64,000 nt of DNA, taken from NCBI GenBank assembly GCA_950295325.1, contig OX485809.1, positions 26,488,144 through 26,552,143 of the forward strand, read 5' to 3'. This stretch comes from Polytrichum commune (lineage: Eukaryota; Streptophyta; Polytrichopsida; Polytrichales; Polytrichaceae). Position 1 is the stretch's first letter, and the number at the start of each line of letters is the position of its first letter. The notes under the pieces are model-generated. The model did not search any database and was not told the DNA's origin. It saw nothing but the letters and a program-made list of their open reading frames with translations. Below are positions 12,529 to 62,600 of this stretch, piece after piece. The translations under genes were made by a program, and so were the position numbers.

Positions 12529-12965
12529 TTGGGTTAAGGTAGAAATACCATAAACCGTGAATTACCCTCTACCTAGGAATAGTGAAGTGTCATTTCTGAA
12601 ACTAGTAATTGCGAGGCTGGCAGTTTGATATGCGTGTACAGTCAGTTTGGTCAAATTTAATCATGTTTGACTATCATCAATCACAGTTTAATGTACTCAT
12701 GATCAACCGGTTTAGGTGATGTTCTGTGTGGAAATGAGCATTACTGTGTTTGGTTTAAGGAGAATCTAGTGAACGAGTAGGGTGTTTGACAAACTTTCCA
12801 CTTTGAAAAATTGTAGAATTTACAAGGAATAAAAACATGAAACAAGTTGCATTCTTCATGAATCCTTCTCTTCTATGTTGGAAAATTATCTCATGAATTT
12901 AAGATAATATATTCAATGCAAATCACCTTATTTTCACGGTTTATGATATTTCTACCTTAGTTGGG
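12529..12965. mobile_element. 427-bp inverted-repeat element beside U2 copy 3
   Basis: The left end reads TTAAGGTAGAAATACCATAA and the reverse complement of the right end reads CTAAGGTAGAAATATCATAA. The pairing continues through ACCGTGAA for about 28 bp with two mismatches. The direct repeat TTGGG (12529-12533 and 12961-12965) abuts both ends and may be a 5-bp target duplication. The body is 12534-12960 with no ORF. Confidence 0.6.
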
Positions 12966-13480: not shown

Positions 13481-16400
13481 ATTGATGGGCGTCGTGATGA
13501 AGGGCAAGGTTACCCTTCACGTTTTGCATCCCATGACTGATTCTTATGGTTTCCTCCCAAATAATGAATACTCATGAGTGCATGTAAGGCGAAAGGTATT
13601 ATCCCAAATTTGTTTGTCCATTTTAAAATCAACACAATAAGCATGTATCTTATTATGAAACTTGTGTAATGTTCACATATGAACTCGCTACTATGATCAA
13701 GGTGAAGCATCCCTCATTCATGCCAACACCAAAGATTGGCATCGTGTTTCTCTCTTTATCTCATTATGTATCGGTGAAGTCTAGTTCTACGTTAAGTGAT
13801 TGAATTTACATAGTACCTTTCCATCGTTATATGTGTTTTGCCATATAATTAGGTAAAAGTCCATATATTGATGAATGTGATTAGGGTATTCCCCCTAAAA
13901 ACAAATCCTCGTGAGTATAAGGTGAAGGGTATTCTCACCAAATTTGTTGCCCCATCCCTCCCCCAACACCATCACCACACAACACACAATAAAATGATGA
14001 AAATTACCTTTCAAAATTAAAAGAGCTACCCACATGTAGCGTATACATTTACATGCTATTGTTGTTTGACTCATTGTTCAAAGTTTGCTCTCACCTTTAA
14101 ATCAACCCTTCATTTACTTCTAGAATGTAATATACATCATTGAGTTTCATATAAATTGTCGCAAATTATAGCATGTTATTAACATGAATCAAAAAAATTA
14201 TGTGTATAATTCATAATGTTTACACAACATAATTCAACACCATAACTTTGTTCCAAGGGTACAAATTTCAAAGCATGATATTGCTGAACAGTTTTACGGG
14301 ATCCAATTAATGGCTTGAGTTAGTATGAATTTGAGTGACATTGAAAAGGCAATGAATCAATCTATGCCATCTTGCTCTAGGAAAATCTAATCCATGCACA
14401 TTAACTTATTGCCTTCCAATTGTTATTTTTAGTACAAGATAACTCTACTACCAGAGCCCACCTCCCAAAGGAGGCATAACACCTGAGGTTGCATCACGGT
14501 CAACCGTGATCGACATAAGGCTAACAAGCTGACATTCATGCCGGTACATGAATACATGCATTACTTTTTTTTTTTTTTCCTTTCCTTTTTTTTTTCTACA
14601 TTCCAAGGTATTTAGGATACAAATCATAATACTTTCCTTGAACTTGGGGTCAAATAAGGTTTAAGTGGTCTTAGAACAGACACTTTTAGCTCTCCGTCTA
14701 GTTTGGGGAGGATATGAAACATTCAATTAGTGCGGGGTGGTTAGAAGTTCCAAATCATGTATGTAACTATTTTTCTCATAATTTTCATAGCCCGTATGAA
14801 TATCTTAATCATTGTCAAAGCAAATTTTGTTTCCTAATTAAATGATCATATAGGTTCCCCTAAATATGTTGACTAATTGAGCCTAGAATGGTTAACATTT
14901 GTTTAGCACATAGTCCAATCTCTTGAAAAATACATGTATTTTTGGTGTCCATTGTTGGATTCACACTTAAACACATGATACTGTAATACATGTTTCCATT
15001 TTAGGTCCGTTTACCTGATAACCTCGAGTGCTTGCAAGGATATAGCTACCCCATGCAAACTAGTAAGCCAATCAAAAGTTAGAATACAAATATAGTTATT
15101 TGCAAAGTCTCTCAAAGAGAGACGAAAACGTGTGTTTGATCCTTCTTTGAGATAACTTTCTATTAAAAGCTTGTTGGCTCATAGTGTATTAGAGTTTGTT
15201 TTGGAAGTTGGGTGAAAATGTTGGGACCTCCTCTTTCCACCTCCCAAACTTTCAGAAAATTTTGGGATCGAAAATAGAGTATACGCTTGGGACTGATTGC
15301 CCCTAAATCGTGGACCATATGTGCAAGGCTAGCTTGGGCCCACCCATCCTAGTAGGACAAGCTAAAAAGACAACTTTAATAAGCCAACACCACTTGTGTG
15401 TATGGAAATTTAAGCTTGAATAAAACTTGAGTGATTTTGTGTAATTTCTCACAATCTCAAGGTTTGGGATTATACCAATTGTTTCATCTGCTTTACTTTA
15501 TAAATAACTCTAATGAATTGTTTTGTGGCTACATAATTCTTTTATTCTTTTCTTTCTTAGAGTTGATTTGACTCCAAAAATGACATCTAAACCCCATGTT
15601 AGTTAAGTGGAACCCAACTAGATATTGATTGTGAACTTCAAAAGGGCCAAGTTTTTGAACGATGGGTGAATTTACATGGTCAAAAATTCAAATTGAAGGG
15701 CAAGTTCATATTAAGATCAAGATTGAAATTGAAAATCAAGACCAAAAGAAAATTGAAAATTGAGTATGCTCGAAAAGTCAAGTGTTTATTATATTATGAG
15801 GGCTCACTAAACAAACAATGAGTGTTGAGTGATGTTATGTGTTGTGGTCACTTCTACCTATTTCGATGTTGGATCAACAAGTTGAATAATCATGTTTACA
15901 AACGAAAAGCCTTGAAACTTCAACTACTACTTCATTCAAACATTGTGAATTAAAATCATTGTTTGTGGAGAGGCTTTGCTTGTATGCCTACAAATGGCAT
16001 GTGCACATGTGATATGCAAAAAACCAAGATGTGGCCAACTGAACCCCTAAATGCCCAAGGATTTTGAACAATTTCAAAATCTACTATAGAAAAAGTATGT
16101 TCTTCTTTCATGAAAGAGAACACTTCTTGAGACAAAGTTGTTCGTAATTGATCAATGCACAAATGCGTACAATTGGTGTTTAAACGAAACTTACAATAGT
16201 GACATTGGTATTCAAAAATAGTTATCATTTGAAGATATCTCGTAAATATTGTTTAGACCATTTTAGTATAGTTTTTTAATCATAAATTTGATGTTCATAT
16301 GAATAGCATGTCATGAAAAAAATATCATGTGTGTATTGAAAACCATCATTGGTGTAAATATCCTTTAGTCTTGGCTAAACTCCCACTACACTACAAAAGT

Positions 16401-47253: not shown

Positions 47254-48928
47254 CAGGGTTGTCTATTGTGTCGTGACGGAGGCTAATCTCGGCATAATGT
47301 CGTGCCGTCACGACACGTATCCGTCACGACATAATGCCAGATGCTGTCTTTATCCTGACGGACTTGAATTTAACCGAATTTTGTATGTAATTACATTACC
47401 CCATTTCGGACACGTAGGATGTAAGATGTCCACATGTGATTGCATGTCAGCAAAGTAGAGGTAAAGTGGGGAAAAAATTACTAGCGCCCGTCTGCCCCCG
47501 TTCCCCCCCCCCCGTCCGCCCCCGTTCCCAACCCCCGTCCGTCCCCGTTCCCCCCCCCCCCCCCCCCGTCCGCCCCCTTTCCCCCCCCCATCCGCCCCCG
47601 TTAGATTCGTAGTCCTCCTCCATGAGTACTATAAATTGAGGGTTCAAAGTGCCATTTTTGCCTCCATTGTCATAGTGTGTCTCAAGACTTTTGATTCTCT
47701 TCTAAGGAGTGAGGATTGAATGCGTGAGACCCGATTGCAGAGGATACTTTGTCCACTCTAGTGACTGTGAATTAGGGTTGCCCTTGTGGCACTCTTCAAT
47801 AGGACCTAGTATGCGATCAAAGTTACTTGCTCTACCTTGTTTGTATTTGCAGGTTTTGTTGAAGTCATGCCACGCCGAAATGATGCATGGGATCATTGGT
47901 ACGAGGATAAGGGGATGGTTCCCGGTAAATCACAAAGGTAGGTTAAATGTAGGTTTTGCCCGTTCGTCATATCTTACCGAGGAAATAGAATGTTGGCCCA
48001 CCTTGGTTATAGACCTCCTTTAAGGGGTGCTTGTGATGTTTCCACATGTAGGATGGTACCCCTGCATATTAGGGTCTTATTTGAAGATTGCGGAGGCGTT
48101 GTGCCCTTACATGTAGGCATTGTAAATGAGGACCCTCCGGTGCGAGATGATGTACCTCTGGAGCCTATTATAGCGGACTCCGTAGATAGTGAAACAGAGC
48201 CTTTGCTTATGTCCCAATCCACTCAGCATTCTGATGTTGTGGCACATGGCACACCTCCTCGTGAACTACGTCAACTCAACATAACGGAGGGGTTCAATGT
48301 GTCAACAAAACAACTCCTTGATAGAGCATGGGCAACGGCTTTTTATGAAGCTAACATTCCTTTCAACATTATGAGACATCCTGCATTTGTTCATGCTGTG
48401 CGTGAAACTGCTCGCCATCGAATGCCAGCCTACACACCACCATCGTACAATGCAATCCGTACGAAGTTGTTAACTGCTAAAAATGTTGATCTAGATAGGC
48501 AAGTGAAGGAGAAGCTGGGGAATTCCGTTGACAAATACGGCGTTACAATATGTTGTGATGGATGGGACAACATGCAAAACCGACCTCTCCTAAACGTTCT
48601 TCAATGTGACACAAAGGGAGATGTTTTCTTGGGTACCATTGATACCACGGGAAATCACAAGGATCATGTCTATGTTGCTGCTCAAATTCAATCATTTGTG
48701 GAAAAGGTTGGTCGACATAATGTGGTCCAAGTTTGCACCGACAATGCCCCAGTTATGGCCTCCGCTGCTCGCGACTTAATTCGAGCAAATCCTGATCTAT
48801 ATGTTCAAGGATGTGTTGCGCATTGCCTAGATCTCCTCTTAGAAGATTGGGGGAAGGAGGAATGGGTGAAAAAGTTGGTAAAAAAAGCGCGCCATATTTG
48901 TGTTTTTGTTAAAAACCATCATGCTTAT

Positions 48929-49229
48929 TGTTGTAGACTAGGATATAGTCTAGACAACCCAAGATAGATCAGGCCCTAATTAGGAGCCGCCGGTATTAAC
49001 TACCGGGGTCCAGGGTCTGACTAGGCGATAAAGGCTAATTACTAAGCTCTCTTACCGAGGTAGTGGAGGGAAGCCGCCGAGTTAGTGGAGTAGGCTGTCA
49101 GTACCTACTGATACAGTAATTACACTTGCAGTGTACATGGGTATATATACCCCCTGGTTTTCAAGGAACTCACTTCTTTCTCTCATATCATTATGCTGCT
49201 GATTTGCCTACTCAGTTAGTTTCCTAACA
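48929..49229 (+). repeat. Copia 5' LTR
   Basis: 301 bp, TG...CA. It opens with an inverted repeat TAGACTA/TAGTCTA (48934-48953) and carries the palindromic TATA region GGGTATATATACCC at 49139-49152, the likely promoter. Confidence 0.97.
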
Positions 49230-49250
49230 CGTTATCAGCACGATTTCTCT
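49230..49250 (+). other. Putative primer-binding site of the copia element
   Basis: CGTTATCAGCACGATTTC directly follows the 5' LTR. TATCAG after an LTR is typical of plant copia sites that pair with initiator tRNA-Met, but only part of the usual TGGTATCAGAGC is present. The tRNA is not certain. Confidence 0.6.
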
Positions 49251-49883
49251 TTTAGGCGCTTCTTACATCCGAAGGCTTCTGAACTCTCGAAGTACTAGAA
49301 CTCATAGTTATCTTCGACCCATCATTCTTGTCTTTCTCCTTTCTGCTTCAGTCTAGACGTCGAAAGGCTGAAATTTTTTCTTCTGATATGTTAGTCTCTC
49401 CCTCTGTTCGTGTGCGGCAACCTTGGAGCTGATGGAGAACACCGAACTCTACACCAGAAGACTAGATCAGGCTCCAGGGAGCACACACACACTGTTTTGC
49501 TTCATATATCTGGCTCTTCAGTCTGACCTTACTCTACTTGTTTCATTTATGCTTATCTGGTTAGCTCAGATGCGTGATTGTTAGATTAGTGGATAGATTA
49601 CTACACGATCAAATATCTATCCATACAGTCTGCTCTTTTTCAGTCTGAAACTGAACTCTAGCTCTGAACTTAGTAGTTTACACACCTGCAACTATATAGC
49701 AAAGCAGACTTAGATATAGATCAGAAAGGTAGATAGTAACTTCTGATGTTGAAATATTAGAAGATATAATCAGGCAGAAGTTACTTTTAGGCCCTGAAAG
49801 GCGATCCTAGTAGGATAGAACCTTCATACTGTCCAAAATATATTTCTGGAGCACTGTAACCTCCAAAAGTATATGAGGACACC
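49251..49883 (+). other. Copia untranslated leader
   Basis: About 630 bp between the primer-binding site and the gag start codon, with no open frame of note. Confidence 0.5.
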
Positions 49884-50123
49884 ATGGCGTCAAAGCCCAA
49901 GTTCAAAAAGACCGAACCAGTAGTTATGGCTACTATACCAGGACCGTCTCAGTCACCATTTTCATCAGGGTCTAGGTTACTTTGCTTTGAACCTTTAAAA
50001 TCTGATGGTTCAAACTTTCTCGAATGGGTCAATGACGCTCAACAATATCTGTCGGCAGAGGAACTAGGAATTTGCCTAGAAACCAACCCGGCAGAAGAGA
50101 AAAGCACCAACAACTTTTGTTGA
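49884..50123 (+). pseudogene. Copia gag remnant (internally deleted)
   Basis: The ATG at 49884 opens a normal plant copia Gag N-terminus, with SDGSNFLEWVNDAQQYL at residues about 45-61. After LGICLETNPAEEKS the frame ends at TGA 50121-50123. The +2 frame just there reads EKHQQLLLKNAE, which matches the far C-terminal part of Gag, before the zinc knuckle. The intervening UBN2-type core, expected to be well over 100 residues, is missing. Gag supplies the particle, so this copy could move only with Gag from elsewhere. Confidence 0.8.
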
Positions 50124-50152
50124 AAAACGCCGAATGAAGACATGCTCGGGAG

Positions 50153-53100
50153 GTGCACGTGGCGATTCCAATGACAAAGGAGCTTCCGACCACCGCACCG
50201 GAGGCACATGCGACCGAAGCCTCGAGGAGACCACCCAAGGGATTCACGAAGCGGTTCGCACCTAAACCAAAGAGGTACGTCCCACGGGGACCACCCCAGC
50301 AACCCAAACACTCATCCTCTAAACCTTCTAAGGGCACTTGCCACAAGTGTGGCCGCAAAGGGCATTATGCTAAGGAATGTAGAGCATCTGCATATGTCAT
50401 TGAATTATACAAGGAAGTTCAGAGGCTCAAGAACCAATCCAGGGAAAACTATAACATTGATATACAACAAGATAACACCCTGGATGTTGAGAACTTTATG
50501 GCCGTGAGAGGGGCATTAGTATCTGAGTCTAACGAAGCACTATTAGATAGTGCTTCCACACACACAATTCTCACGAGTCCTAAATTCTTTAATTTCTCAG
50601 ATAACAAGTCATCCTGGCAGCATTGTAACATTGTTACAATGGCCGGAAGCCGGAAATTTAAATTCCGGGAGGGCCGGGCAGTTATTGGTCTGCCCGGGGG
50701 ATTCCCCCTCATTTGTGAAAGGGCTATGTATGCCCTTGAGGCTCCTCGAAACCTGATCAGTTATCGAGACCTACGAGCCAACCAAATCCACGTATCCACC
50801 GCGGTGGGTAGCGATGAAGAGGTGCTGGAGCTCAGGCAAGGGCAGAGCCTCCTTGCCACCGCGTATGCGGGAGACGAAGGCCTATACAGGCTCAATATCA
50901 AACCGATAATGAGCAACCCCTTCTCCCTAGGAGATGAGGAAGAGGTTTGTATGGCGGTCTGGGCTGAGGACTCACGACCAAGATGCCAAAACCTGGCTAC
51001 GGGGCTACCCCGTTACAATACAGCCAAACAGGATTTGTGGCACCGGAGGTTAGGACATCCAGGAACAACAGTGCTCCGTAGGATGTTACCCATTACCTTA
51101 GGCCACAACTTGAGCACTTCAGACGCTCATAAGGTGCAAGATTGCATCGCATGTATCCAGGGAAAATTTAGTAAAAAGCCTTCACGGTGGCATTTACCAA
51201 GCGAATTACCACCTCCTCTATATCGCATTCATGGCGATATCTGTGGCCCAATCAATCCTCCTTCTGGTGCATTTAAATACTTCTTTGTATTGATTGATGC
51301 ATCTGGTAGCCACCTAGAGGTAGCGCTTTTACCCACCAGGAATATGGTTTTCCCGAAGATACTAGCCATCCTCATACGGTACCGCAACCATTTCCCAGAT
51401 TATCCAATTAAGCATTTACGGATGGATAATGCAATGGAGTTTCGCTCACACGCCTTTGAGGACTACTGTGCTGCTATGGGGATAACACTAACCTACTCGG
51501 TACCATATGAGCATTCCCAGAATGGACTGGCTGAGGCCTTTATCAAGAAGGTACAGCTCGTCACCCGCCCTTTACTTTTACAGGCTCAACTTCCCACATC
51601 CATGTGGGGACACGCTGTCCTACATGCTACAGCCTTGCTCAAGTTGAGACCGACCTTACTTAATGTTCAGACACCAGCCGAATTACAATCCGGTAGAACC
51701 CCGGACGTTTCACATATAAGGGTTTTCGGTTGCCAAGTTTGGGTTCCGGTGGCAGAACCAAAGAGGCACACGGTGGGACAACACAGGGAAGAGGGGATTT
51801 ACATTGGATTTGACTCACCGTCGATCATTCGGTACCTGGTACCAGCAACAGGGATTCTACTTAAGGCAAGGTTCGTTAATTGTCGGTTTATCGAACACAT
51901 ATTTCCTCAGGTCTCAACTCCCGAATCCAACCAGAAACTTGAGTTTTCTGCACCCGAGACCCTGACCATGAATCCCGACCCTCCAACTTCACTAGGGGAT
52001 GCTGAAATCAAGAAGTTGCTACACCTGAAGTCGCTCGCGGAACAGGTACCCGACGGCTTCGCTACAGGCCCAAGGGTTATCCGAAATCCGTTACCCGGGA
52101 CTGGCAACACCTTACCCCAGAAAAGACCAGCTTCTAACCCCGCCCCTAAACCCCCACCCAAGCCCGCCAAACGAGCCACTAAACCCAAGGTCAACTACAC
52201 GGCTGGGAACATAGACTACGACCCTGGATCTTTGGAGGAGGCCCAATCCAGGGAGGACTGGCCGAAATGGCAAGAGGCCATCGAGACTGAGTATAACTCA
52301 CTCCGAAAGCATCAAGTTTTTGGGCCAACTGTCACTAACCTGGACAAACATCCGATTGGCCACAAACTTGTTTTTACTCGCAAATACGACGCCACTGGGA
52401 CGATAACCAGGTACAAGGTACGCCTGGTAGCCCAAGGCTTCTCCCAAAGGCCGGGAATTGATTTCGATCAGACATATTCCCTTGTAATGGACACTATTTC
52501 ATTTCGGTTTTTGCTTGCCTTAACCGTTCAGTTGTCCTTGCACATATTTTTGCTGGACGTGGTCACAGCTTACCTGCACGGTGTTTTAGACACCAAATTG
52601 TTCATTGCACCACCTCCGGGATTTCTTCATCACGTACCAGCTGCAGCTGCCGGTAAACATACAGGTTTACAAATCATGAAGGCGCTCTACGGCCTCAAGC
52701 AAGCTGGACGTACGTGGTATCATCACTTGTGCAACTACTTAGTATCCAAAGGTTTTGTACACAATTCTACATTACCTTGTATATTTACATTAACAAATAA
52801 TGTTGGTTTTGTTATTGTAGCCGTATATGTAGATGATCTAAATGTCATTGGACTACCCGAGTTATGTAAATACACTCAAGATCTGCTAGTCCAACAGTTT
52901 GACATGAAGATACTAGGTAAAACTTCGTATTGCCTAGGCCTACAAATACAACATCTTAGTGATGGCAGTATATTACTGCATCAACAGTCCTATACTCAGA
53001 AATTGCTTAAGAATTTCAATATGGATCAGTCGCATCCACTAGCCGCACCAATGATTGGGCGTAGTAAAACTAAGGACGACCCCTACAGTCCCCGTGAGGA

Positions 53101-53830
53101 GGAGGAGGAGATTGTAGATAAACAACGTTACCTCACGGCTATAGGGGCCTTTACTTACTTGACTACACATACTAGACCGGACATAGGGTTTGCTACTAGT
53201 ATACTAGCAAGGCATAGCCAAAACCCTACGGCTAGACATTGGAATGGAGTTAAACACCTAATGAGGTATTTACGTGGCACCGAGGATCTAGGATTGCACT
53301 ACAGAAAATGCCAAGGCCAAGAAACAACAGGCTATGCTGATTCAGGCTTCAGGACGGATGAGGTAGGAGGTAAATCCCAGACAGGGTACATTTTCATCCG
53401 GGATGGGGCCCCGATATCTTGGAAGTCGGTTAAACAAACCATAACCGCCACATCAACCAATCATGCGGAATTACTCGCTTTTCATGAGGCTGCCAAGGAG
53501 GCAGTATGGCTCCGTACCATGGAGGGGATCATTGTGAAGCAATGCGGGATCAAGGCCCAAGATAAACCAACGGTAATTTATGAGGATAATGCCTCATGTG
53601 TAAGGCAGATGCAATCAGGGTTTATCAAGGCAGATAGGACAAAGCATATCAGCCCTCATATCTTTTCATTCTCACAGGATCTGGTAGATTCTGGACAAAT
53701 TGAGATTAGGAAGATTGAATCAGAGAATAACATAGCTGATATGCTCACCAAGGCATTACCAGCCTATAAACACAAAAGGCTAGTAGATGCCGCGGGAATG
53801 AAATCACTTCATGAGCTCAACCACATGTGA
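50153..53830 (+). CDS. pol: Copia pol polyprotein, open throughout (protease-integrase-RT-RNase H)
   Basis: 1225 codons without a stop. The frame has no ATG before GTG 50153, and its upstream stop is TGA at 50135; in an intact element it would be fused to Gag. In order: zinc knuckle CHKCGRKGHYAKEC (about 63-76); protease DSA motif in LLDSASTHTIL (about 130), where most copia proteases have DSG; GAG-pre-integrase LWHRRLGHPG (about 295); integrase Asp in HGDICGP, Asp in LRMDNAMEF and Glu in NGLAEAF, the last two 35 residues apart as in D-D35-E; RT with LLDVVTAYLHG and YVDDLNVIG (about 890); RNase H with GYADSGF, YEDNAS and KHISPHIF; C-terminal IADMLTKALPAYKH. All catalytic positions I can check are present. 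With gag deleted, expression and mobility in cis are unlikely. Confidence 0.95.
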   Translation: MHVAIPMTKELPTTAPEAHATEASRRPPKGFTKRFAPKPKRYVPRGPPQQPKHSSSKPSKGTCHKCGRKGHYAKECRASAYVIELYKEVQRLKNQSRENYNIDIQQDNTLDVENFMAVRGALVSESNEALLDSASTHTILTSPKFFNFSDNKSSWQHCNIVTMAGSRKFKFREGRAVIGLPGGFPLICERAMYALEAPRNLISYRDLRANQIHVSTAVGSDEEVLELRQGQSLLATAYAGDEGLYRLNIKPIMSNPFSLGDEEEVCMAVWAEDSRPRCQNLATGLPRYNTAKQDLWHRRLGHPGTTVLRRMLPITLGHNLSTSDAHKVQDCIACIQGKFSKKPSRWHLPSELPPPLYRIHGDICGPINPPSGAFKYFFVLIDASGSHLEVALLPTRNMVFPKILAILIRYRNHFPDYPIKHLRMDNAMEFRSHAFEDYCAAMGITLTYSVPYEHSQNGLAEAFIKKVQLVTRPLLLQAQLPTSMWGHAVLHATALLKLRPTLLNVQTPAELQSGRTPDVSHIRVFGCQVWVPVAEPKRHTVGQHREEGIYIGFDSPSIIRYLVPATGILLKARFVNCRFIEHIFPQVSTPESNQKLEFSAPETLTMNPDPPTSLGDAEIKKLLHLKSLAEQVPDGFATGPRVIRNPLPGTGNTLPQKRPASNPAPKPPPKPAKRATKPKVNYTAGNIDYDPGSLEEAQSREDWPKWQEAIETEYNSLRKHQVFGPTVTNLDKHPIGHKLVFTRKYDATGTITRYKVRLVAQGFSQRPGIDFDQTYSLVMDTISFRFLLALTVQLSLHIFLLDVVTAYLHGVLDTKLFIAPPPGFLHHVPAAAAGKHTGLQIMKALYGLKQAGRTWYHHLCNYLVSKGFVHNSTLPCIFTLTNNVGFVIVAVYVDDLNVIGLPELCKYTQDLLVQQFDMKILGKTSYCLGLQIQHLSDGSILLHQQSYTQKLLKNFNMDQSHPLAAPMIGRSKTKDDPYSPREEEEEIVDKQRYLTAIGAFTYLTTHTRPDIGFATSILARHSQNPTARHWNGVKHLMRYLRGTEDLGLHYRKCQGQETTGYADSGFRTDEVGGKSQTGYIFIRDGAPISWKSVKQTITATSTNHAELLAFHEAAKEAVWLRTMEGIIVKQCGIKAQDKPTVIYEDNASCVRQMQSGFIKADRTKHISPHIFSFSQDLVDSGQIEIRKIESENNIADMLTKALPAYKHKRLVDAAGMKSLHELNHM

Positions 53831-53900
53831 GAGGTACTCTTTTCTTCATTAAGATTTTATCCCAATGGGTTTTGCTTAATGAAGTTTTTAATGAGACCAT

Positions 53901-53917
53901 CTCGGGTTGAGGAGGAG
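53901..53917 (+). other. Copia polypurine tract
   Basis: The purine-rich run GGGTTGAGGAGGAG lies immediately before the 3' LTR. It would prime plus-strand synthesis. Confidence 0.75.
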
Positions 53918-54218
53918 TGTTGTAGACTAGGATATAGTCTAGACAACCCAAGATAGATCAGGCCCTAATTAGGAGCCGCCGGTATTAACTACCGGGGTCC
54001 AGGGTCTGACTAGGCGATAAGGGCTAATTACTAAGCTCTCTTACCGAGGTAGTGGAGGGAAGCCGCCGAGTTAGTGGAGTAGGCTGTCAGTACCTACTGA
54101 TACAGTAATTACACTTGCAGTGTACATGGGTATATATACCCCCTGGTTTTCAAGGAACTCACTTCTTTCTCTCATATCATTATGCTGCTGATTTGCCTAC
54201 TCAGTTAGTTTCCTAACA
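53918..54218 (+). repeat. Copia 3' LTR
   Basis: 301 bp, identical to the 5' LTR apart from G at 54021. Its TATA region is at 54128-54141. Confidence 0.97.
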
Positions 54219-54475: not shown

Positions 54476-54944
54476 AAATACGTACATTATTTACATGTGT
54501 ACGTATTTTGTGTTTCATGGTGATTCCTTCATTTGGAGATGAAGGAGGAAAGTAAAAGGGAGTAGAATTAGATTACCTTTTTACTTAGCACAAGGGAACC
54601 CCAAAGAAAATGGGGATTCAAGCCCAAAAGGGCGAATCCCACAAGAAGGTAACCAGTTAACCTGCACAAACCACTTAACAACAATTCAGTGCAGAAAACG
54701 AATTCAAAAACTTTGACAAACAAGAAACAGGGAAAACGGGAGTTCACCTGTTGGCCAACTCAGCTGCCAAGAACTGCCACCTCATAATGCCAGCGCAACC
54801 CTATCAAGAACCCCAACCATAAGCTCTAGGGTTCAAAGCTCCTTCATACTCCTCGCAAACGACCTTTCAGCTGAAGCAGGAGTAGTTGCACCAGTTAAGG
54901 CAGTTTAGCAATTTTCCTCGGAAAACTTCCAACTCTCAACCACC
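54476..54944 (+). other. Leader region of the 841-codon ORF, with a hairpin
   Basis: No gene is seen. A strong inverted repeat lies at 54613-54640: GGGATTC, AA bulge, GCCC, loop AAAA, GGGC, GAATCCC. The region is not visibly similar to the LTR-like sequence at 57661-59440, so it is not that element's 5' LTR. The hAT coding similarity ends at its left edge. Confidence 0.5.
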
Positions 54945-57470
54945 ATGCCAACTACCCAGGAATCAACGGACAAGAAAAGCCCCCTGCACCACCACCTCTG
55001 GCACACCATTGAGAAGGAGTCTCTGAAAGCCTTGGCTACAGTCAAGTTTAGCACAGAAGACGATCATTTGTATCCTTCCCTGTGCAAGCAGCACATTTGG
55101 CAACACGCACTGTTCCGCGGCGTGTCAGCCACCACCAAGCTCGAACCAGCTCCTCCCTCTTTTCAACTCATGCACGGTACAGTTACCTACGAACCAATGG
55201 AATCATACACCTTCAACATGGACGCGGCATACAGGAGCGCCCAGTTTAGCAAGGAGGAGGTCACATTTCTGCGACAGCTACGTTTGGAACATTTCTTGTG
55301 TGATGTACCATGGGGAGTTTTGCATGCGGTTAGGGCGGCGGAAGCAGTCAACACTCTACAAGAAGACAGCCTGACAGTCACACTTAAAGGTGAGGTATTA
55401 CCCCTGTTCTCCAAAGACTGGAGAAGTGTGTTTGCCAAAATTTTCCAATTATCACCAAAGGCACCGGGGGGAGAAGGGAAGTGGACATTGCAGGAACTCT
55501 TCCCCTCACTCAAAGAAATCCAAAAAGGGCAGACAACAATGAAAATCGGAGATTGCCGGGCTGCAGGCTCCAAGCGGCCTCTGAGGCTGCTAAATTCACT
55601 TTTCTGCTTAAACACCACAAATCAGTACAGTGTCACCATCCACTTCGCCGAGTTAGTGCTAGCAGCCCTGAACGGGCACGCAGTGGATTGGTCCCTCAAA
55701 TTCCTCGATGAATTCAAAGCCGAGGTGATATCACTACACCGACATCAACAGAAAGAAAATGCCAAGGTGATCAAAACGGCCATCGGACCTCACCTCACTT
55801 TGATTATCAATGAGGCAGAGTTACTGGGCAGCCAGGAAAGGGAAGATGCAGGGTTCGGCACAACAGCAGGACTTACCATCACCGAACGCACTCCTCAACC
55901 CAAGAAACGGAAATTAGGAGAAGAACCTGCTGCACATTTGGAGAAGGTAGTGCGGGTTGTGCCACGACCTCCCCTGTATTCCACACGACCTTCCCCAAAC
56001 CCGGTTCCAGAATCAAAAGCACAGCGTTCCACCCTGGAGGCGGGAGGACCATCGAAATATAAGGTCGTTACATCAACAGAAAAATGGAAGGTGCCAGATA
56101 GTACCTCCACAATGATTTCCCAGATTTGTTTCACACATCGAAGGCTGGAACAATTGCTGACAACCTTTACCACCAAGGCAGGACCTGCCTTCATTAAGAA
56201 AATGGACGATGCATTTCACCAATTGCAGATCGAAGCATCACAACATTACAACCAGGGCTTGCGGTTGAAGGAGCCCTTAACCACCAATGAGCAGGAAATT
56301 GAAAAAGGATTGCTGCACATCGAGATCAAGCAACTTAAGAAGAAGTTGTCCCAGGTAAATGAAGATTATGAAGGACAAATCGAAATTGCTTTCGAATTAC
56401 AAGACCAACTGTCATGCCTTGAAGCCACAGTCGCCGAAATGACTAAGGCCACACATGCCACACAGGCCACACAGGCAGAATGTACGGAATTGCACAAGAC
56501 CATCACCAGTCAAAGCCAACTTCTGCAAGAACAAAACCAGGAGTTGGAACTGGCCCACCAACAGGCCCAGACTTTGCAAATTCAACAACAAGAGCAGGAA
56601 AATGAATTAGCAATAGTCAGAGAAGAACTTTGGACGTTTCACCTGCGCGCATCAGGCCCTGCGCCGGGTGCATCCAGATCTGACCTAAGGGGGCAACATG
56701 CCGGAAGCAGCAATACCCGGGGTGCATCAGCGCTGCACTCAATGACGGAAGGTACTCTGACCCCTACTGGGAAGCAACAGAATCTTATTACCGAGTTACA
56801 ACGTGAATTGGCCTACACCAGGCGAGAGCGAGAAGAATTGCAGGTCTCAATGGAGAGGATGGTGGAGAGCCCTCACAGTTACGAGGAAGGGAGCCTCACC
56901 CCATCCGAGCTCCCCAGGGCTTACACCTCCCCTAAGACCGCCATTTACCATCAGATCACCTTACACACTCCCCCTTTTACAAGCATCATGCAATGCTACC
57001 ACGCAATGAGGGATCTGAACCTGTTAATTAGCAAGCTACCCATTCTCAAATCAGGGATCTTGCTTACCAAGCTACAATTGGAGCGAATCTGGACCGGGGC
57101 AGATGCAACAGCTCGGGATACCATCGCCTTCATGTGGGCAACAGGCGACCTTCGACTTCCCACAGGTATCATGGAAGTTGTGACCGGATCGCCCCCATTC
57201 TACATAGGCCGATTTATCCTCAGAACCCTGAATTTCATTGGCCGCCATCATTCCACCTTCCACAAAACCACCCCAATGCTGGAATTGCCCACCCTCAAAG
57301 CATACCCGAGTTCCAGTTTTCACCTGATCAAGGAGCTTGTGCAAAGTCACTCCATCACCTTCAGCCAAGCAATCAAAACTTTGGCGCTTGAAGACACCAC
57401 GATCTGCCATGAAGCAATGCAACAGTATACTTGGCTGCTACAACATTATCCAAACACCCTAACACCCTAA
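54945..57470 (+). CDS. Unrecognised 841-aa protein, probably of transposon origin
   Basis: A single uninterrupted frame from ATG in CCACCATGCC to TAA. I do not recognise the family. Residues 1-300 look globular, with FSKDWRSVFAKIFQLSPKAP and LLNSLFCLNTTNQYSVTIHF. The layout is loosely like plant transposon-protein domains (Transposase_32/PMD-like), but I see no diagnostic motif. PKKRKL at about 318-323 is a basic nuclear-localisation-type sequence. Residues about 445-565 are Gln/Glu/Leu-rich and predicted coiled coil, with a second short coil at about 614-642. Residues about 665-841 form another globular region with ILLTKLQLERIWTGADATAR and GSPPFYIGRFILRTLNFIGR. No protease, RT, integrase or zinc knuckle is present. 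It ends 162 bp before a 20-G tract and an LTR-like region, so it may be the sole ORF (gag-like or accessory) of a long LTR element. GC content and codon use are unlike the AT-rich flanks. Intact length argues for recent selection or recent arrival. Confidence 0.7.
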   Translation: MPTTQESTDKKSPLHHHLWHTIEKESLKALATVKFSTEDDHLYPSLCKQHIWQHALFRGVSATTKLEPAPPSFQLMHGTVTYEPMESYTFNMDAAYRSAQFSKEEVTFLRQLRLEHFLCDVPWGVLHAVRAAEAVNTLQEDSLTVTLKGEVLPLFSKDWRSVFAKIFQLSPKAPGGEGKWTLQELFPSLKEIQKGQTTMKIGDCRAAGSKRPLRLLNSLFCLNTTNQYSVTIHFAELVLAALNGHAVDWSLKFLDEFKAEVISLHRHQQKENAKVIKTAIGPHLTLIINEAELLGSQEREDAGFGTTAGLTITERTPQPKKRKLGEEPAAHLEKVVRVVPRPPLYSTRPSPNPVPESKAQRSTLEAGGPSKYKVVTSTEKWKVPDSTSTMISQICFTHRRLEQLLTTFTTKAGPAFIKKMDDAFHQLQIEASQHYNQGLRLKEPLTTNEQEIEKGLLHIEIKQLKKKLSQVNEDYEGQIEIAFELQDQLSCLEATVAEMTKATHATQATQAECTELHKTITSQSQLLQEQNQELELAHQQAQTLQIQQQEQENELAIVREELWTFHLRASGPAPGASRSDLRGQHAGSSNTRGASALHSMTEGTLTPTGKQQNLITELQRELAYTRREREELQVSMERMVESPHSYEEGSLTPSELPRAYTSPKTAIYHQITLHTPPFTSIMQCYHAMRDLNLLISKLPILKSGILLTKLQLERIWTGADATARDTIAFMWATGDLRLPTGIMEVVTGSPPFYIGRFILRTLNFIGRHHSTFHKTTPMLELPTLKAYPSSSFHLIKELVQSHSITFSQAIKTLALEDTTICHEAMQQYTWLLQHYPNTLTP

Positions 57471-57632
57471 CACATCCTTATACCTTACAGCAGGTTAAGG
57501 AATACATTTTGAGGATATTGCGGGAGAAGGATATGGCCGTAACCAAGAAGCGGTTCGGCACTCCAAATCCCAGAACCATATTGCACCACGATCATTAGCA
57601 GCAGCATTAGAGCATGGGGACATGCTCTTCGC

Positions 57633-57655
57633 GGGGGGGGGGGGGGGGGGGGAGG
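57633..57655 (+). other. 20-G tract, candidate polypurine tract
   Basis: An unbroken run of 20 G (57633-57652) followed by AGGATAAA and then TGTGTAGCC. G-rich tracts ending just before TG occur at the 3' LTR border of many plant Ty3/gypsy elements. The exact G count may be unreliable in the assembly. Confidence 0.5.
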
Positions 57656-57660
57656 ATAAA

Positions 57661-59440
57661 TGTGTAGCCATTAAACGACCACACCGCACCGCACCGGCGG
57701 CACTGCCTGAAACACCAAGAGATGAACACTGAAGCTGAAGGACTGAGGGCCCGGAGGAGGACGTTGGAGAAAGGATAGGGAGACGGTGAAGCGACCGAGA
57801 GAATGATGGGACCTAGGGCCGGCACAGGAGGTGGCCACGCGTCACTGAGAGCCGACGGCCTTGGGAACGCGCAAGAACCGGGAGCGGGGAGAACGACCCC
57901 CCCCCCGGGAACGGGGGAGCATCAACGGGAGCGCACCGGGAACGCCGACCGGCCTCGGGAACGAACCGAGAGCACGGGGGCGGCTTGGGAACGAGCTAAG
58001 GACTTCAGGAACGGTCAGGAGAACGAGAGAACGGCCGGGAGGCTGGGAATGTGTGAAGCAAGCCGGGAACAAGCTGGGAACAAGCCGGGAACGCCTGAGA
58101 CCCGAAGAGGCATGCTAATTAGGACACGTGTTAGAATTAGGGAAATGAATGGAGGACGGATGAACTTTGAACCGAAGGAGATGTACCTATTTACTACATC
58201 TCAAGGAGGGTAGATTCCTAGCTCCTAGATTAAAGACTTGTAATTCAGGCTATTTATAGATACATGGCTATTTATAGCTGAGACGGTTATTTCAGAAAAT
58301 TAGGCAAATGGTAGATTTAAAATACTATATAAAGGGGCCAACTTGAGGGCCCTAATACACTTCATTTGCCGCGGACCACTAGTCGTGAAGTGTCTTAAGA
58401 GGCCGAACGAGCAACCCTTTGGAGACCAAAGGACTCGTGGACCTCGAACCTTTTATTAGCTCAAAGAGGCCGTACGAGCAACTCTTTGGAAACAAAGGAC
58501 TCGTAAACCTCGAACCAAACTTAGTATTAAAAGCCGATGAAAGGCCAACGGAAGCTTAAAAGAAAAATTAAGCGAAACTTATGAGATTTACAAAGAGATC
58601 ATCGGAATTACACACGAACTCAAGTAGGAACTTGAGGAACGGCCAAATCATTTACAAAGGCCAATCAAGTGGAGCTAATTAAAGATTGGAAAAAGGACTT
58701 AGAAAAGATTGTGATTTACTTAAGAGAACTTATCATGAAACAAGCATTGTAAGAAGCCGGAAGAGGCTAACTCTTTTGAATGAACAATCACAAAGATTTG
58801 TGCATAGTAACACTTGAGCTTAAAAAGGATTTGAGTACCTTTCACTTACTTGAGCAAGGTATGTTAATCATTGCATTAGGCTAAGGTTTGTAAACCAAGG
58901 ATTTCTACTCAAGCAAAGCCGCCGAATAGGCAAATTCCACATCTTGCCACCATGATACCTATACTAAGATTTCACGTCATTCCAATCTAAGGAAACTTAG
59001 GAATAGTAAGTTAAGGCGTTGAAATCTAACCAAGGATATCTCGGAGAATTCTACTCAATAGATCTTGAGAATTCGGAATTACACCTAAGTAAGGGAATGT
59101 GAACCTTGTGGACTAAGAATAAAACCATAAGAGGAAAGGGGTACAATAATACATTAGCGAAGGAGTATGTTGGAATCTAAAAGAGATCTTAGTACAATAT
59201 TCTGGGAATTGAAATGGAATAAGAATATTTCATTATCATTCAAACCATGAAAGATATTGTATGTAAGGATAAGAGTTTCCTTTAAAACACTTAACCCTGA
59301 CATTAGGATTTCGGGGAACATAAACTTGCAAACTTAGGTCAACTACTCCTTGAGAGTTCAAAAGAGCATCAAGATTACATGTTACAAAATTAAGGTAACA
59401 GAGAGAATACAAACACATTCACAAGTATGAAAGGCTAAGA
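57661..59440 (+). repeat. LTR-like region with TATA box; right border undetermined
   Basis: It starts TGTGTAGCC after the G tract. It contains TATATAAAG at 58326-58334 and, about 60 bp later, a tandem pair of 53-bp units (58398-58450 and 58465-58516; markers AGAGGCCG, ACGAGCAAC, CAAAGGACTCGT, ACCTCGAACC). The rest is purine-rich with no coding frame. ORFs at 57803-58213 overlap in several frames in a GC-rich stretch and look spurious. The combination fits a long 3' LTR (promoter then R/U5), but no second LTR copy exists in the window to prove it. The right limit is arbitrary. Confidence 0.4.
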
Positions 59441-59443
59441 TAA

Positions 59444-60493
59444 TCTAATTTTGGTGGGAGTAACTTCCATGTAAACCGGTTCAGGAGCGGGTTACACCGT
59501 CTAAGTTTGCTGAGGGTTGAAGGTGACCTTGACAGTGGTACGGGTGGAGGGCGCCAGAGAACTACGAGAGGTGTCAAATGTACTAGGAAGATGTATCAGG
59601 GAAGATCGCTTCCGTTTACTGCTGAAGACTACAATGAAGATGAGGGTAGACCACAGGGTTGTCTATTGTGTCGTGATGGAGGCAAATCTCGGCATAATAT
59701 CGTGCCGTCACGACACGTATCCGTCACGACATTATGTCGGATGCTGTCTTTATCCTGACGGACTTGAATTTTACCGAATTCTGTGTGTAATTACATTACC
59801 CCATTTCGGACACGTAGAATGTAAGATGTCCACGTGTGATGACATGTCAGCAAAGTAGAGGTAAAGTGGGGAAAAAATTACTAGCGCCCGTCCGCCCCGT
59901 CTGCCCCTGTTCCCCGATCGTCCGCCCCCGTTCCCCCCCGTCCGCCCCCGTTCCCGCCCCATCCGCCCCCGTTCCCCCCCGTCCGCCCCACCCTCGTCCC
60001 CCATCCGCCCCATACCCTCCTTAGTCATATTTTACTACTTTGATTTTAAAATAATGATAAACAGAATGGCAAAATGGTTTACCTGGCGCTCGGCATATCC
60101 ATGTCCACGTCGGCTTTTTCTACCACATAGGACGCCACCTTGGCAAGAAGGTAAGTATTTTACCCACCCTCTTAGTTTCCCCCTAGGTTGACCCTACGTG
60201 GACCCTATTGTGTCGTGACAGAGGGGTTCATCATGACACGACACATCATGACGGCACAACACCGTCATTACGTCGGGATAGACAACCCTGGTAGACCACA
60301 TCTAGATGAAAATGGCATACAGGATGCAAAGGGCTCCCGGCCCACCAAGAAGATAATTATCTTACAACATGACCGAGAGTTGCACCTTCGGAGCGCGACT
60401 CCCTTAACAAATGATGATTTCAACACAGACGAGTCTGAAGAGGACCCAAGGTGTGACGAAGCAAATGATCCCACAGTATGGATTCAAACGTAA
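59444..60493 (+). pseudogene. Coding remnant interrupted by a hAT element
   Basis: An open frame without a start codon runs from 59444 (SNFGGSNFHVNRFRSG, then KCTRKMYQGRSLPFTAEDYN) to the hAT insertion at 59654. After the insertion and one copy of the 8-bp duplication, the same frame resumes at 60299 (HLDENGIQDAKGSRP, then an acidic tail DESEEDPRCDEAND) and stops at TAA 60491-60493. Removing the insertion gives one continuous frame. The FHV... segment faintly recalls the region after a retroelement integrase. I do not otherwise recognise it. Confidence 0.55.
59646..60298. mobile_element. Complete non-autonomous hAT element B
   Basis: The target duplication GTAGACCA (59646-59653 and 60291-60298) flanks a 637-bp body at 59654-60290. 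The terminal inverted repeat is CAGGGTTGTCTAT, perfect for 13 bp. Subterminal TCACGACA/TGTCGTGA motifs cluster at both ends. The left 230 bp match hAT element A at 47254, followed by the same kind of C-rich array (about 59886-60010). It encodes no transposase and was presumably mobilised by an element-A-type enzyme. Confidence 0.93.
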
Positions 60494-61172: not shown

Positions 61173-62600
61173 CTAAACATCATACAAAAATTCATAATTT
61201 GAATCTGAATTGAGGTCTATTGCAACTGGATTAGCTGGATGAAGACTGCCGTGCAATTGAAGTCCTCGTTGTGCTCGTGATGATTTCGCTGCATCTTCCA
61301 CGCTTCGCGCTGCTCCACCGGTGAGATATGGACGACTTCTAGGAGACAATGGAACGGCATTACGTGGTCTAGGCCCACCAATTAGCCATTTCAAAACCGT
61401 ATCATCCGTAAGTCTATGCAAGAATGCATCAATTGCATTCAACTACAGTCTGTTCTGGTGGTACCCATGCTCAAACTGCAATTCAATTCTCGGATCCCGT
61501 TCCATAGGCATGTCATCTGCATCTTGTTCCAAATCATGCTCCGATACTGATTCGAAATCTGCTGCATTGTACCAAGGAGGATGATTGCCTCTCTTTAATT
61601 GTATGCTTGTTATATTCCAATGCCAACCAAGACATTGGTAAAAAATATTTTCAACATATGCTCGGGAGCTTGTTGTGATATAATTCATATGCAGCGTACG
61701 TAATTTGACGTGCATTCCGTGTCCATGCTCCATTTATGTTCTCGTTTCATAACTCAACCTTGATACAATTGTATAATCAGCTTCACTGAACATTCTCCGC
61801 ATCAAACTCTTGAAGTTCGATTGGAAAGTCCTTAGGCTTTAACACCCACACGTTAGGCATGTAATCCCGAAGGCCAAATCGGAGGTACAAACGAGGGTGG
61901 AAGGGTGATTTACAATGAGGATACTGACGTTTCTTGATCATATTTTTTATTAGACATTGTGGATGGAATTGGGCCTTACATGATCCAACTTGAAAGCATC
62001 CTTTTGGGTCAAATGCACATTGGCAAATCGCACACCCGGATCGGTGTGAAACCATTGCATGTGGATTTGGCCACAACACCACCAACCATGTAGAATGGAT
62101 GTTCATGCACTTGTTCCACATCCCAATGGTGATCCTCATCGGGCACTTGCTGTTAATCGATGCTCCCGCTTGGCAATGTCACTCCTTATTCTTATCCCAC
62201 ATACTAGGGTACATCTGCTCATCTTCTGGCCATGACGTGAGCATCATATTCCGCATTCTCTGATTGCGGTTTCATTCTTTCTGGATGTTCTCAAACTCAG
62301 CTTAAAATTGACGGGCCTTTACCATAGCAAACAATGTGCATGTCCTCATATTCTTGCGCTCTACAATCGCATTCAACAGAAATTTCTTTAGCCTTGCATT
62401 CTGTTCCTCCAATTGATCAAGAATGTCAAGGTTAATCTTGGCTTTGTAATCAACAATAACTTCATAGACCACTTGAATTTGTTGCTACATGTCCACCACC
62501 TCTTTTAGCAAAGCCTCCATATTTCCGCGCATTACTTGATTTATCGTACATACTTCCAAAGTTTTTGACTTTGCAATCTTGGCTTCTTTTAAATATATTA
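61173..62600 (-). pseudogene. Decayed coiled-coil and zinc-binding protein, transition-mutated
   Basis: Reading the minus strand from about 62600 down, one frame gives a helical coiled-coil part (INQVMRGNMEALLKEVVDM, DYKAKINLDILDQLEEQNAR). It continues into a Cys/His cluster SGCAICQCAFDPKGC, CKAQFHPQCLIKNMI and CPHCKSPFHP-like YPHCKSPFHPR, resembling a RING/PHD-type fold. It then runs through INGAWTRNARQITYAAYEL. One frameshift near 61660-61680 leads to YVENIFYQCLGWHWN and LKWLIGGPRPRNAVPLSP, ending at TAA near 61173. Eight in-frame stops interrupt it (after VDM, ARQF, IQKE, KNKE, ENVQ, one codon after that, KVEL and HQNRL). Each is one C-to-T or G-to-A change away from a sense codon (CAG, CAA, CGA or TGG). 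The protein family is unknown. Upstream of 62600 the DNA becomes extremely AT-rich (intron or non-coding). Confidence 0.7.

Follow-up and report, generated by a model that had tools for sequence, protein, structure and literature searches.

What kind of gene is the long open reading frame (ORF) that lies in a block of transposons in the genome of the moss Polytrichum commune? The stretch analysed, 64,000 nucleotides of contig OX485809.1 (GCA_950295325.1, positions 26,488,144 to 26,552,143, forward strand; hereafter the window), carries this frame over 2.5 kb at 54945-57470. An earlier note, made from the letters alone, described it as intact and of unknown family, and proposed a gag-like or accessory protein of a non-autonomous long terminal repeat (LTR) family, or a captured host gene. 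The ORF is very probably a defective copy of ORF2, a sense accessory gene located between pol and the 3' LTR of a gypsy lineage. This identification follows from position, copy number, the gag-pol of relatives, purifying selection, domain layout, a basic motif and a structured RNA upstream. The accessory protein of an LTR element is the part of the proposal that held, as ORF2 is the 3' accessory ORF of gypsy elements. In kind it is an ordinary plant 'additional ORF', though its protein family is distinct and an RNA element accompanies it.

The earlier note had suggested counting copies by genome search. The genome comprises 407.8 Mb in 64 contigs, of which C1-C7 measure 42-78 Mb; C8 carries psaA/psaB, and the top three PsaB matches (7ksq, 6l35, 8htu) are moss (Physcomitrium) structures, in keeping with a moss host. 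In this genome, the ORF2 protein has at least 66 matches, which merge into 49 loci; 54 of 174 candidates were scored, so these counts are lower bounds. Among the matches scored, nine besides the window copy are near full-length and 54-58% identical (one has an internal stop), others show 31-42% identity, and a distant group shows 26-28% over about 750 residues; in another comparison, members were 23-56% identical to the window copy. Integrase matches were scored for 113 of 3,188 candidates, which partly explains integrases and loci without a partner. ORF2 occurs within 12 kb downstream on the same strand in 41 of the 68 integrases with at least 65% identity to the query (36 of them 1.5-3.4 kb away, the other five 5.8-10.4 kb away), and a second ORF2 family in none. 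The 45 integrases of less than 50% identity have the reverse pattern: 41 are followed by the second family, four lack such a partner, and none has a window-type ORF2. As controls, window-type ORF2 was found upstream of one of the 113 integrases and the second family upstream of none, and neither family occurs downstream on the opposite strand. Viewed from the other side, an integrase lies upstream (within 12 kb, same strand) in 42 of the 49 merged ORF2 loci, the window being among the seven without, and in 41 of 106 merged loci of the second family. A captured host gene, as the earlier note had it, does not fit at least 66 matches of which 42 of 49 loci are placed behind a related integrase; an older capture of a host gene by the ancestor of the element is possible.

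The owner of ORF2 is a Ty3/gypsy LTR retrotransposon, an assignment based on the two TG...CA LTRs, target duplication, tRNA primer site and gag-pol order of a complete relative on contig C5. This element is 19,484 bp long, with LTRs of 2,264 bp (TGTAGGG...CTCGACA) and a 5-bp target duplication, GGGAC, on both sides. Behind its 5' LTR lies a primer site that can pair with the 3' end of tRNA-Arg(ACG); the tRNA pattern (T-arm plus acceptor) occurs without mismatch at eight places in the genome, against none for the reversed control, and the one place fetched is tRNA-Arg(ACG). A 221-codon frame without a Pfam match is followed by a 3,264-codon gag-pol frame ending with TAA at 12862. In this one relative, gag (PF03732), reverse transcriptase (RT), RNase H, H2C2 and rve score above their Pfam cut-offs, protease and zinc-knuckle matches are weak and below cut-off, and the order is gag-protease-RT-RNase H-integrase. 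The hairpins of the structured RNA begin at 14193, followed by the ORF2 ATG at 14551, within ACCACCATGG, and by the 3' LTR from 17221 onwards. That the ORF is gag-like, or comes from a non-autonomous LTR family, is therefore extremely improbable: the window ORF does stand alone with one LTR, but PF03732 lies in the relative's own gag-pol frame, the position 5' of pol expected of a gag domain is not that of ORF2, which is downstream of integrase, and the relatives carry gag-pol, the window copy being a truncated remnant.

The window copy of ORF2 has the following layout:

54945..57470, + strand: gypsy-element accessory ORF (ORF2); this copy has 841 codons, ATG at 54945, TAA at 57470
55212..55874, + strand: N-domain, residues 90-310, the best-conserved part
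55899..55916, + strand: basic motif PKKRKL at residues 319-324, where 17 of 17 aligned members carry a basic cluster
56100..56864, + strand: coiled-coil stretch, residues 386-640
56922..57449, + strand: C-terminal helical domain, residues 660-835
57473..57598, + strand: C-terminal tail of the ORF2 family, 41 codons plus stop; in this copy it lies in a different frame from the ORF

Much of the earlier description of the protein was borne out. The frame has the coordinates it gave and is far longer than chance would allow (ln P = -38.8 for 841 open codons, with a stop probability of 0.045 per codon at the base composition of the window). The two globular regions it expected correspond to AlphaFold-confident blocks within residues 101-300 (68-88 in most ten-residue blocks, falling to 60 at 171-180 and to 51 at 271-280) and 681-770 (71-88). 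The long Gln-rich coiled coil is predicted as one long helix at 447-567 plus helices at 386-439 and 607-641, with Q making up 12.5% of residues 386-640. No Pfam family matches the window protein and no enzyme domain was found in the Pfam scan, the top match (E 0.055) falling on the coil. The nuclear-localisation-type motif is PKKRKL; the basic cluster is kept among the aligned members despite the variable stretch around it, in a weaker form in two of the 17 (only PKKTK or PKKPK). These features bear on whether ORF2 could be an env-like protein for membrane fusion or cell-to-cell movement. It occupies the place of env, in sense orientation between pol and the 3' LTR, but a hydropathy scan shows no strongly hydrophobic segment (maximum 19-residue hydropathy 0.92-1.65 across 17 members, from the scan only), and what ORF2 does have is a long coil and a basic motif of nuclear type. 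We regard an env-like protein as highly unlikely.

ORF2 is under purifying selection. The dN/dS over ORF2 is 0.072-0.158 in nine of 12 pairs, these ratios being rough at a dS of 1.1-2.9, and that of the N-domain is 0.038-0.114 in the eight computable pairs. In the three pairs with the window copy, synonymous sites are saturated, with pN at 0.26-0.28 and pS at 0.77-0.78.

A conserved structured RNA with compensatory changes precedes ORF2. The element comprises three hairpins in about 90 nt, ending 314, 308 and 272 nt before the ORF2 ATG in loci L002, L003 and L006, respectively. A DNA search located it at 19 places, the window included, and a covariance model detected it in 20 of 21 non-window leaders examined, the miss being L049. 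Loci L025-L028 were found by the model though they had been left out of its building (E 1e-9 to 1.8e-8), and their third hairpin has a different sequence and the same shape. In an alignment of 17 sequences, 96.3% of cells pair and seven pairs are changed on both sides. Covariation reaches 0.241; shuffles give 0.101 (sd 0.011), and slid versions never exceed 0.074. Few independent events lie behind this value, since most changes are common to the four outgroup members and the structure guided the fitting of the alignment; among the 13 sequences used for the model, two pairs show two-sided changes. By folding z-score, seven copies lie between -4.0 and -5.3 and the window copy at -3.4; the best fold of L028 lacks hairpin 1. 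Rfam gave no match for the three-hairpin element, and we recognised no paper on such hairpins in our literature searches. In the window copy, neither hairpin 1 nor the 5' arm of hairpin 2 can be recognised, and only hairpin 3 is intact:

54611..54640, + strand: third hairpin of the upstream RNA element, window copy; model score 50 bits overall

Downstream of the frame, the G tract and LTR-like region reported in the earlier note are both present:

57633..57659, + strand: 20-G tract (57633-57652) then AGGATAA, at the position of the polypurine tract of the complete relative
57663..59534 (approximate), + strand: 3' LTR, identified by homology with the complete relative; start placed by analogy with TGTAGGG, end TTGACA

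What stands in the window is a remnant: ORF2, the G tract and a 3' LTR, without gag-pol or 5' LTR. Gag-pol similarity was not found within the 64-kb window (best E 0.21), nor was a second LTR for this copy; the family tail, by which the proteins of relatives run about 41 residues further (RFGTPxxRTIL), is out of frame, and the hairpin element is reduced to its third hairpin. 'Intact' is therefore apt for the 841 open codons, but not for the protein end or the element. A cut exactly at 54590 was considered and softened, since leaders vary widely among other ORF2 copies as well; we claim only that pol, hairpin 1 and the 5' arm of hairpin 2 are lacking. The window LTR has close relatives in the genome (89% identity over nearly full length and pieces at 94-97%, among 40 matches scored of 638 candidates).

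Could the host have taken over this one copy as a single gene? Its 841 codons have stayed open in a truncated element, its N-domain shows pN of 0.15-0.17 against saturated synonymous sites, and the ORF2 region has no close DNA copy in the genome (longer matches at 64-73% identity, short ones up to 87%). Selection in other elements accounts for the same numbers, however, the C-terminal tail is out of frame, and neutral survival of a young remnant is indistinguishable from takeover because the 5' LTR is missing. A host takeover is accordingly given little credence, and we retain the defective accessory gene.

How ORF2 might serve its element can be proposed from its domains and surroundings. We hypothesize that ORF2 is translated separately, beginning at its own ATG, from a message that carries the hairpins and is either spliced or initiated internally, and that the protein would enter the nucleus through the PKKRK-type motif and oligomerise via the coil. 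The N- and C-domains may bind nucleic acid of the element or chromatin. ORF2 would then aid the element, most likely in RNA export or stability, or against silencing, a mechanism that we advance tentatively; a role in the targeting of integration is conceivable and carries less weight, and other roles account for the rest. The hairpins may be the target of ORF2, an initiation signal or a packaging signal.

Several observations weigh against the accessory-gene reading. No ORF2 was seen within 12 kb of 27 of the 68 integrases of at least 65% identity (113 of 3,188 candidates scored), the dN/dS ratios are rough at such high dS, and a fold comparison of ORF2 gave no match of any weight. ATGs occur between the hairpins and ORF2 in L002 (four) and L003 (one), and in neither the complete relative nor L006. 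Finally, L025 and L027 have a single open frame from integrase through the hairpin element into ORF2, so that separate expression is not the sole possibility. Such frames are what would be seen if ORF2 were the C-terminal part of a gag-pol polyprotein, released by the protease and not a separate gene product. The pol of the complete relative, by contrast, stops with TAA 1,686 bp before the ORF2 ATG in ACCACCATGG, and the hairpin element is retained in copies of both kinds, single-frame and separate; the polyprotein is improbable, if somewhat less so than the other alternatives, and a separate accessory protein is preferred. In L025 and L027, the hairpin stretch is either coding and structured at once or open by chance.

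The second moss ORF2 family has 116 matches in the genome, many of them open frames of 850-985 codons (L051-L053 examined), and sits behind a sister gypsy lineage whose integrase is 45-49% identical. Three pieces of this family match PF20167 (Transposase_32) in the N-domain with E of 5.8e-7, 1.5e-5 and 9.8e-5 (22.8-30 bits; curated cut-off 45); they were chosen for that match, from nine places at E 1 or better of which none is above the cut-off, and their scores are a biased sample. The window protein itself has no PF20167 match. N-domain profiles of the window and second families align over 130 columns with a score of 32.4 (best of 300 column shuffles 22.2, reversed 10.7), and hhalign gives the same pair a probability of only 11-25% (E 0.0026 and 0.00079, single comparison). 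Judged from these profiles, the two N-domains are probably distant relatives. A distant homology of ORF2 with Athila-type accessory proteins, which runs solely via the second family, is likely, though not proven.

The 3' additional ORF of Athila (PF20167, related to Athila ORF-1, PF03078; PMC11728184) is likewise in sense orientation 3' of pol in a gypsy element. The sunflower Athila ORF, a PF20167 match, has a nuclear signal (RGGKRKL) behind that domain (PMC11728184), as the window ORF2 has PKKRKL behind its N-domain. It differs in having 487 residues, compared with 841 in the window (relatives 777-992 aligned), whereas the window family has a long coil, a C-domain and conserved hairpin RNA upstream. 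Retand elements with TRP28 (Transposase_28, PF04195; PMC11963269) share a long region between pol and the 3' LTR and an accessory protein, possibly regulatory, but their ORFs are antisense and ORF2 is sense; a PF04195 search of the genome gave no match, with its controls likewise silent. Plant env-like ORFs (PMC7264820) agree with ORF2 in position and orientation; ORF2 differs from them in lacking a clear transmembrane segment in the hydropathy scan.

The owner lineage is probably a non-chromovirus (Athila/Tat-like) gypsy. The gag-pol frame of the single relative scanned has no chromodomain match with E of 0.01 or lower, and the primer is tRNA-Arg, a primer other than tRNA-Met being a mark of the non-chromovirus OTA group (PMC6317226). 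The additional RNase H (aRH) that marks Tat was not found. The Phygy clade of Physcomitrella (PMC6317226) is also a non-chromovirus gypsy of moss; its elements are described as rather short, preferring NCGN targets and having almost all of the internal part taken up by the polyprotein, unlike the 19.5-kb element with its ORF2 and GGGAC target. In our literature searches we recognised no report of a moss gypsy element with such an ORF.

Two further observations concern the relatives. The complete element on C5 belongs to a tandem (L013-L016, L029) of two complete internal regions and three LTRs, all 100% identical, which suggests recent activity or recombination; tandem copies sharing LTRs are reported to be common in plants (PMC11899658). 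In its gag-pol (L014, L015), the region from RNase H to the integrase core holds eight modules in tandem, each about 130-152 aa long and resembling DWR...H..H...YWWP...C..C; they are 19-40% identical to one another, and some have lost zinc ligands. The last is the usual integrase H2C2 domain, and Pfam detects five H2C2 stretches. YWWP-type motifs number eight in L009, seven each in L012 and L022, six in L023 (two frames) and three in L025 (part of the locus). Tandem integrase zinc modules are very unusual, and we recognised no published description of them in our literature searches.

Other elements surround the remnant in the window. A young copia element at 48929-54218 has 301-bp LTRs (48929-49229 and 53918-54218; 300 bases identical), a CTTAT target duplication and a 1,225-codon frame at 50153-53830. 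It was ruled out as owner of the ORF, having its own LTRs and target duplication and ending 726 bp before the ORF2 ATG. The repeat at 59654-60290 has 25-nt terminal inverted repeats (80% complementary) with a C-rich microsatellite inside and looks like a small DNA transposon; a partial second copy lies at 47254-47599, 12.4 kb upstream. The outer repeat pair 47254-47599 and 59654-60002 was rejected as the LTRs of a short element on account of those terminal inverted repeats. On the minus strand at 61783-62139, a 118-codon frame has a Cys/His spacing that, by eye, resembles a RING or PHD finger fragment.

A 2019 survey asked whether the additional ORFs of plant retrotransposons function at all, being so heterogeneous (PMC6317226). 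ORF2 represents one such family that selection has maintained through deep divergence, in a constant position downstream of a conserved folded RNA. The faint profile link to an Athila-type domain hints at an old origin of such proteins among land plants. More speculatively, and with considerable doubt, ORF2 and the three-hairpin RNA could be the protein and RNA halves of a regulatory pair carried by plant LTR retrotransposons and comparable to viral systems for RNA export or anti-silencing, with proteins of this type dating to the common ancestor of mosses and seed plants. Given the genetic tractability of mosses, the role of ORF2 is testable.
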